From Flavobacteriales bacterium (GTDB lineage: Bacteria; Bacteroidota; Bacteroidia; Flavobacteriales_H; JAHEZO01): a stretch of DNA of 33,033 nt. This document shows positions 30,719 through 33,033 of the stretch, one piece after another. Under the pieces are notes generated by a model. It saw only the letters and a program-made list of their open reading frames with translations. It was not told the origin of the DNA and searched no databases. Numbering within the stretch: position 1 is the first letter of the stretch; each line of letters starts with the position of its first letter. The stretch spans positions 2,044 through 35,076 of the forward strand of contig JAHEZO010000011.1 in the NCBI GenBank assembly GCA_023250995.1. Reading direction: 5' to 3'. A program made the translations under genes and the position numbers.

Positions 30719-30815
30719 TCTTCAGCCAGAACTTTCCATCCAATAGTAAAACAATTTTAAAATCTTCAATTATTTATCCCAGGTACAGAATAAAATAAAT
30801 CCGGTGGCCTCCATA

Positions 30816-33033
30816 ATGAAGTATTTTCTGATTGTTTTTTTTGTTGTAATTTTTTCGGATTGCATTTTTTGCCAACAAAAATCAACAATCGACTCCCTTA
30901 CCCTCGAACTTAAAAACTCGAAACAGGATACCTCCCAGGTAAAAATTTTGCTCGATTTAACTGCTGAATATTACCTTTCTGATCCTTCGCGGGCAAATGA
31001 ATTTTGCGAGCGGGCCAGAGAGGTTTCGGAAAAAATAAATTTTAATTTCGGGTTGGCTGAATCTTACGGATGGCTGGCATTCTTTTACAAAATGAAAGGG
31101 GATATTCTTCTCGCTTTGGATTATTATAAAAAATCTCTTTTTTATCAGGAGGTCCTTCAGGATAAGGAAGGAATGGCCAGTGCCATAAACAATATTGCTT
31201 TAATCTATCAGGATCAGGGTGACATTCAAAGGGCATTAGAATTTTTTCAAATGTCGCTTTCAATTTTGGAGGAAAATAAGGATACAAACAACATTCCCCG
31301 CATATTGAATAATTTGGCCTTTATCTACCAAAACCAGGGCGATTTATTAAAGGCATTGGAATATTTTAACAAAGCATTGGTAATTTTTGAAAACACCAAG
31401 AATAAAGGGGCCATCGCTGTACTGTTTAACAATATGGCGTTGGTTTACCAAAAGCAAAACGAGGTTGCCAAGGCATTGAATTATTTTAATAAGTCCCGTT
31501 CTCTTTATGAAGAAATTAATGACAGGAAAGGAATCTCAATTTCGCTTAACAACCTTGGCAAGATTTACGAAAAACAATGGGTTGAAAAAACGGAAAAGCC
31601 CCGCCATGACGATTCGCTTTTAATAAAGGCAATGGAATTTTATCGTAAGTCGCTTGCAATAAGAGAAGAAATCAAAGACAAACGGGGCATGGCGGTTTGT
31701 TTTATAAATATCGGTTCAGCTTTCCTTCAAATTGCTCAAATTGAAAAGGGGGTGAAAACGGAGAATCTGGATAGTGCTCTGAAGTATTCCGGTAAAGCAC
31801 TCACCATTTCAAAAGAATTGGGTTTCCCCGAAATTATTCGGGATGCTGCAAACGTGATGAATAAAGGTTTTCGCCAAAAAAAACAATGGGAAAAGGCATT
31901 GGGGTATTATGATATTTTTATCACCATGCGGGATAGTATTTTAAACCAGGAAACCCGCAAGGCCTCTGTTAAAAAACAATTGCAATATGAATTTGATAAA
32001 AGGGAAGCAGCACTTAAGGAGGAGCAAGCCAGAAAAGAGGCGGTAGGAAAGGAGGAATCAAAACGCAAAACAATTTTTTTATTGCTTGTAATTGCTCTTG
32101 CAGCGGGTACCGGAGTGATAGCGGTGATAATTCTCCGTGCTCTGAAAGTGGCCAGAAAACAAAAGGGAATTATCGAGGAACAAAAACGGATGATAGAGGA
32201 AAAGCATAAAGAAACCACCGATAGTATTAATTATGCCAAAAGACTTCAACAGGCAATTTTGCCTCCTGTTGAATTTATTAAAAAGTATTTACCCGAAAGT
32301 TTTCTTATATACAAACCAAAGGATATAGTGGCGGGAGATTTTTATTGGATGGCCTCCCTTCCGCCCGAAGGGGGGAACACCAAAACACTGGCGGGAAGCC
32401 ATGTGCAAAGCGAACTCCCCCCTTCGGGGGGCGGGGGGGCTGTTTTCATTGCTGCTGCCGATTGCACGGGCCACGGTGTGCCGGGTGCATTAGTTTCTGT
32501 GGTGTGCTGCAATGCACTTAACAGATCGGTAAAAGAGTTCGGCCTTCGTGACACGGGAAAAATACTTGACAAAGTTACCGACCTGGTTTTAGAAACATTT
32601 TCTGCCTTCGATAAATCTTCGGCAGACAAGGAAAAAAATGGAGAACAAATAAAAGACGGAATGGATATTTCTCTGCTGCGAATAGAACACTTTTCTCCTC
32701 CCTCCCCGGGAGATAAACCGGTGGTTAGAATTCAATGGAGTGGTGCAAATAATCCGCTTTGGTATTTTATAAATAATGAATTTAAAGAAATTACTGCCAA
32801 TAAACAACCCGTTGGGAAAAGTGATAACCGGAAACCGTTTACAACACATAATATTGAGGTTTTCGCGGGTATTAAAGAGAAGGAATCGCAGGTAACTTTT
32901 TATTTGTTTACCGATGGTTATCCCGACCAGTTTGGAGGCCCCAAAGGGAAAAAATTCAAATATAAACAACTGGAAAAAATGCTCTGTTTAAATAACAATT
33001 TGCCATTGGAAGAACAAAAAATCCTTCTTGAAA
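30816..33033 (+). CDS. TPR-repeat membrane protein with C-terminal SpoIIE phosphatase domain (3' end outside window)
   Basis: Not in the ORF track because it has no stop in the window. MKYFLIVFFVVIFSDCIFCQQK signal; TPRs (NNIALIYQDQGDIQRALEFF...); TM IFLLLVIALAAGTGVIAVIIL; SINYAKRLQQAILPP, AGDFYWM, ADCTGHGVPGALVSVV, FTDGYPDQFGG. Confidence 0.92.
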   Translation, partial: MKYFLIVFFVVIFSDCIFCQQKSTIDSLTLELKNSKQDTSQVKILLDLTAEYYLSDPSRANEFCERAREVSEKINFNFGLAESYGWLAFFYKMKGDILLALDYYKKSLFYQEVLQDKEGMASAINNIALIYQDQGDIQRALEFFQMSLSILEENKDTNNIPRILNNLAFIYQNQGDLLKALEYFNKALVIFENTKNKGAIAVLFNNMALVYQKQNEVAKALNYFNKSRSLYEEINDRKGISISLNNLGKIYEKQWVEKTEKPRHDDSLLIKAMEFYRKSLAIREEIKDKRGMAVCFINIGSAFLQIAQIEKGVKTENLDSALKYSGKALTISKELGFPEIIRDAANVMNKGFRQKKQWEKALGYYDIFITMRDSILNQETRKASVKKQLQYEFDKREAALKEEQARKEAVGKEESKRKTIFLLLVIALAAGTGVIAVIILRALKVARKQKGIIEEQKRMIEEKHKETTDSINYAKRLQQAILPPVEFIKKYLPESFLIYKPKDIVAGDFYWMASLPPEGGNTKTLAGSHVQSELPPSGGGGAVFIAAADCTGHGVPGALVSVVCCNALNRSVKEFGLRDTGKILDKVTDLVLETFSAFDKSSADKEKNGEQIKDGMDISLLRIEHFSPPSPGDKPVVRIQWSGANNPLWYFINNEFKEITANKQPVGKSDNRKPFTTHNIEVFAGIKEKESQVTFYLFTDGYPDQFGGPKGKKFKYKQLEKMLCLNNNLPLEEQKILLE
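32352..32440 (+). repeat. GC-rich palindromic sequence inserted in frame in the SpoIIE coding region
   Basis: cctcccttccgcccgaagggggg ... ctccccccttcggggggcggggggg inside an AT-rich gene; encodes ASLPPEGGNTKTLAGSHVQSELPPSGGGG between conserved GDFYW and ADCTGHG. Confidence 0.72.

Follow-up and report, generated by a model that had tools for sequence, protein, structure and literature searches.

If a GC-rich palindrome lies within a protein-coding gene and preserves its reading frame, did it arise from within that gene, or is it a piece of mobile DNA that the encoded protein has come to tolerate? The question is raised by one end of the window (i.e., the whole stretch of 33,033 nucleotides from a Flavobacteriales bacterium that we analyzed), where an open frame of 743 aa (30804..33032, + strand) encodes TPR repeats, a transmembrane helix and a SpoIIE/PP2C-type serine phosphatase domain. 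The nearest solved relative of this domain is the PP2C domain of SiaA (6k4e), and relatives of the gene were found in Bacteroidota MAGs. The 3' end of the gene is missing, in that its contig (C318) stops at window base 33033.

A palindromic insert in a phosphatase loop

Within the phosphatase domain, 36 codons of a single open frame lie between the motifs GDFYW (32334-32348) and ADCTGHG (32457-32477). This loop (32349..32456, + strand) exceeds the usual length of 12 by about 24 codons: in a census of 91 related loops most were 12 aa, with a range of 12 to 50 aa, and the equivalent gap in the window's second SpoIIE gene (305-1525), FIELNENEALFCV, is 13 aa. The earlier note on this DNA was thus correct in describing the gap as expanded and in frame, and the circumstance that it had set against its own reading, that orthologs share a loop of similar length, is contradicted by the census. 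Because the loop at this position is 22-50 aa long in four other SpoIIE paralogs of the same genome (none of them with a clear palindrome), the GDFYW-ADCTGHG site evidently tolerates insertion. In an AlphaFold model of the domain, built with 62 relatives and having a mean pLDDT of 83.9, the insert (pLDDT about 51-58) falls between strands 46-54 and 78-90 (residues of the 32199-33032 translation) and is predicted to form a low-confidence beta-hairpin tip, in keeping with the earlier proposal that it occupies a hairpin loop of the enzyme.

The insert consists of two hairpin units in inverted orientation, a left unit GCCTCCCTTCCGCCCGAAGGGGGGA (32352..32376, - strand) and a right unit TCCCCCCTTCGGGGGGCGGGGGGGC (32416..32440, + strand), separated by a spacer of 39 nt (32377..32415). 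Its arms, which had been recognized as GC-rich and palindromic from the letters alone, are 25 nt each and 84% complementary, and the reading frame is kept throughout. When 131 nt were folded, the free energy was -76.5 kcal/mol (z = -6.06), a value equaled by none of 200 shuffled sequences, and CCCCTTCGGGG occurs once in the window against an expectation of 0. No DUF559 gene lies between the window units, which enclose only the 39-nt spacer; the full form, with such a gene, sits in the acs gene of the same genome (see below). The spacer resembles that of a SpoIIE paralog on contig C261 and does not resemble DUF559.

The earlier note had also considered that the sequence might lack any other copy in its genome. 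This is true of the entire 99-bp insert, for which we found no second near-identical copy in the host genome, but not of its parts: the terminal unit recurs in an intergenic position on C284 and bounds the acs-DUF559 insert on C126 at either end, and the equivalent loop of the C261 paralog contains a diverged copy of the whole insert (77% over 61 bp). A high-copy repeat family in this genome (G000) was considered and rejected, since GC hairpin patterns fell below the reversed-pattern control and units were few. Weak BLAST matches on C1, C327, C322 and C164 look like chance.

A second palindrome-like stretch, CTCCCTCCCCGGGAG (32690-32720; peptide SPPSPGD), occurs in another loop of the same SpoIIE domain; that loop is longer than its counterpart in L031, and the stretch is perhaps a decayed unit.

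Hairpin units across Bacteroidota

The right unit, together with the T that follows it, fits a dispersed motif (TCCC..GGGNGG..GGGGCT), and a motif search recovered units from 8 of 18 Bacteroidota genomes, the reversed control giving 0 matches. Alignment of 34 units revealed hairpins of the CCTCCC..GGGAGG type with G-rich tails. Many units lie in frame within genes for GatB, MutS, GlyRS, FtsY, MurG, IleRS, MetH and LeuRS, and GatB of genome G009 contains an exact copy of the right unit of the window.

These units seem to target SpoIIE genes often. In genome G001, the same SpoIIE loop carries a pair of units resembling two intergenic copies (L128, L132), and further SpoIIE paralogs have one unit each in a different loop, the one that precedes YLFTDG; in a relative (G320), a unit pair occupies the same loop in three SpoIIE genes. 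Among the SpoIIE genes examined, none had the full DUF559 element at the GDFYW-ADCTGHG loop. At five loci (L137, L143, L034, L148, L151), units occur singly or in pairs in other loops of SpoIIE paralogs, namely those preceding YLFTDG or GDFYW and the WY..N.E loop.

DUF559 nucleases nested in conserved genes

DUF559 was present in all 8 of the unit-bearing genomes vs. 7 of the 10 without units, such that co-occurrence at the level of genomes is uninformative. In the host genome, the acs gene (C126; L119:652-3012), encoding the only Acs match above threshold in that genome, is interrupted by an in-frame insert of 156 aa, arranged as unit, DUF559 nuclease domain, unit, at a point whose neighboring residues correspond to 296 and 298 of the solved Acs 2p20. 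Comparison of the insert ends with the window unit gave a score of 22, as against 17 for the best of 500 shuffles. Acs was matched in 34 of the 40 genomes searched (its own included), and in most of the relatives examined the site is empty, the two parts of the protein adjoining with no unit between them. With the unit-like remnant at the insertion site in G318, the site is observed in three states, i.e., empty, remnant and full. The Acs of G009 is interrupted at the very site used in the host genome by a DUF559 domain only 40% identical, which clusters with the DUF559 within RecJ of G002.

This arrangement is not confined to acs. Matches to PF04480 were found in 15 of 18 and in 171 of 296 genomes, many of which are MAGs, and many of the matches lie in open frames of 600-1480 aa. 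The Pfam domains surrounding DUF559 include LeuRS (two sites), Acs, MetH (two sites), RecJ, TsaD and RecG, as well as methylmalonyl-CoA mutase, HsdR, HsdM, type ISP and Eco57I-like enzymes, and UvrD-like helicases; for coproporphyrinogen oxidase, an M23 peptidase and locus L268, an internal position of the insert does not follow from the boundaries of the host domain. Since nested loci were drawn from the best-scoring matches and chosen as open frames, their counts are no census, their in-frame state is in part a consequence of the selection, and insertions out of frame would be missed.

GC-rich hairpins are closely associated with the nested nucleases: they occur within 150 bp in 68 of 92 flanks but in only 4 of 92 at a distance of 750-900 bp (Fisher p = 2.5e-24), with hairpins undetected on one or both sides at 19 of the 46 nested loci. 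The same count for stand-alone DUF559 genes gave 64/87 vs. 3/83. In the DUF559 phylogeny, a single supported clade of 31 holds 29 nested copies, residing in unrelated host genes and accounting for most of the cases in housekeeping genes; the nested state requires 9 changes on the tree, compared with 30.5 when labels are shuffled. The nested copies retain ExDG..H in all 46 cases and, where dN/dS could be computed, have values of 0.06-0.26, and are under purifying selection. Between the RecG genes of G101 and G306 (L261, L265), dS is 0.38 for the host but 0.03 for DUF559, and identity peaks over the insert, a pattern that, in this single pair, is only suggestive of a homing tract.

Two further features of the nested loci were observed. 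A motif, [YWF]xT[AG][DNR]...L, precedes the DUF559 domain at 22 of 46 nested loci and at none of 45 stand-alone copies. In HsdR of G280 (L229), a GIY-YIG nuclease domain lies upstream of the DUF559 insert in the same protein and is perhaps a second nested nuclease.

Origin of the coding palindromes

The explanation that we favor, with a probability of roughly 0.6, is that the window insert is the short, gene-less form of a family of mobile elements that end in palindromes and, in their long form, carry a nuclease of the DUF559 type. The short form would comprise two inverted hairpin units and a spacer, to which the long form would add DUF559, a Vsr-like nuclease of the PD-(D/E)XK type, and the tie between the window's short form and DUF559 is confined to the terminal 25-40 bp, its spacer being unlike the ends of the elements. 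Both forms would enter protein genes in frame and be translated within the host protein, and the phosphatase would presumably still work with the insert in place. Mobility, which we infer from comparison, would depend on the nuclease cutting or nicking DNA, such that the element is moved or copied; short forms would then be non-autonomous derivatives or remnants of DUF559 elements. The Caulobacter DUF559 protein VsrA is needed for the DNA-damage response upon loss of a methyltransferase, and the authors of that study propose breaks made by VsrA (PMC12907096), a proposal that fits nuclease action of DUF559.

Could the units instead be repeats of the REP/BIME type, moved by RAYT (Y1 tyrosine) transposases and only incidentally linked to DUF559? 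BIMEs typically contain hairpin units paired in inverted orientation, and Y1 transposases occur in 12 of the 18 genomes, the window's own among them. However, across 20 Y1 loci (of which 1.7-3.4 kb were read), units were near two only, neither of them adjacent and one being the FtsY unit; the density of units is 0.036/kb at Y1 transposase loci vs. 0.32/kb at DUF559 loci; and G001 and G002 have units but no Y1 match, although both genomes may be incomplete. We consider movement by RAYT unlikely. REP/BIME sequences are short hairpin units, often in inverted pairs, that are mostly intergenic and sometimes within genes (PMC3733652), and the likeness of the window family to both the GTAG and the CGTC types lies in these inverted pairs of short hairpins. 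The 34 aligned units have no evident GTAG tag at the foot, and the CGTC tag and AT-starting stem of the latter family (PMC3733652) are absent from CCTCCC..GGGAGG units. CGTC REPs reportedly have no transposase of their own, whereas units of the window family adjoin DUF559 genes.

That DUF559 is a mere passenger, either inserting into palindromes already present or accompanying palindromes that spread independently by recombination, would account for the frequency of DUF559-less units in G009 and G013 and for the one common site in MetH that holds a unit-only form in G016 and the full form in G008. It is harder to reconcile with the inverted hairpins that closely flank DUF559 on either side, as expected of the ends of an element, or with the empty Acs site that has no unit in most of the relatives examined, and we find it improbable.

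The suggestion that the element is removed after transcription (by an unknown type of intron, intein-like splicing or ribosome bypassing), leaving a mature phosphatase without the insert, draws on the strong RNA hairpins at the borders, which are also a feature of bypassing elements. Inteins and intron-borne homing endonucleases do resemble the nested elements, in that a nuclease lies within conserved genes at recurrent sites that are empty in relatives. But none of the nested inserts interrupts the reading frame (as follows from the selection of cases), such that the insert is presumably retained, and Pfam scans of the nested proteins detected no splicing domain, the Hint domain of inteins included. 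Nor did Rfam detect a group I or group II intron near the inserts at nine host loci, the sole group II match (L178:3113-3187) being far from DUF559; removal of this kind is very unlikely.

Ordinary variation in loop length, in which slippage or recombination expands a GC-rich stretch and yields a palindrome by chance, is in line with the range of 12 to 50 aa and with the several paralogs having long, non-palindromic loops, but it is already disfavored by the dispersal of one unit among unrelated genes and genomes, the absence of matches in the control and a fold z of -6, and we give it hardly any weight.

Among known systems, the closest in mode are the Rickettsia palindromic elements (RPEs), i.e., palindromic repeats that are read in frame in protein genes and tolerated by the host protein (PMC3733652). 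The RPE-like nature claimed for the window insert at the outset stands with regard to kind, this being an in-frame palindromic repeat of the mobile type tolerated in a loop, but not with regard to family: the host is a bacteroidote rather than Rickettsia, copies are few where an RPE requires many dispersed ones, and the family, in which CCTCCC..GGGAGG hairpins with G-rich tails are paired in inverted orientation, is better defined by its link to DUF559. By analogy, the window element would work as an RPE does, the likeness drawn here being one of mode. Stand-alone DUF559/Vsr-like endonucleases (PF04480; e.g., PDB 3hrl and Caulobacter VsrA) have the same domain but are known as separate genes, as opposed to the nesting between palindromes seen here.

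Together, a hairpin repeat and a translated DUF559 within essential genes suggest an undescribed type of selfish element, and no description of DUF559 elements nested between palindromes was found in the literature searched, a body from which most subscription papers fell outside. The broader proposal, toward which we lean slightly, is that DUF559 nucleases mark out a class of selfish DNA that enters conserved genes in frame by homing or transposition, that persists unspliced as a domain of the essential host protein, with translated palindromic ends, and whose gene-less derivatives explain inserts such as the one in the window. The class to which the window copy points may be categorically new.

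Palindromes inserted in frame have been described from Rickettsia and from some other bacteria, and a large group of REP repeats reportedly has no enzyme of its own. Here, coding palindromes become tied to a specific nuclease family, which itself sits apparently unspliced in essential enzymes and at recurrent sites, and this link makes the origin and movement of such palindromes directly testable. Such elements also show how proteins can acquire loops and whole domains, and they may account for annotated fusions of DUF559 to unrelated enzymes.

Because palindromes at 9 of 13 DUF559 loci in plasmid records, mostly from Alphaproteobacteria, exceed the 95th percentile of controls, the partnership between DUF559 and palindromes may reach beyond Bacteroidota. 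Repeats of the CGTC type were mostly absent beside the plasmid DUF559 genes, with a weak CGTC-like hairpin pair in L360 only; in L353, two CGTC repeats lie about 2 kb from DUF559. In plasmid records from Alphaproteobacteria and others (L353-L366), GC-rich hairpin pairs with CCCTCACCC-type tails adjoin the DUF559 genes, and the pair in L355 resembles the RIME elements of rhizobia.
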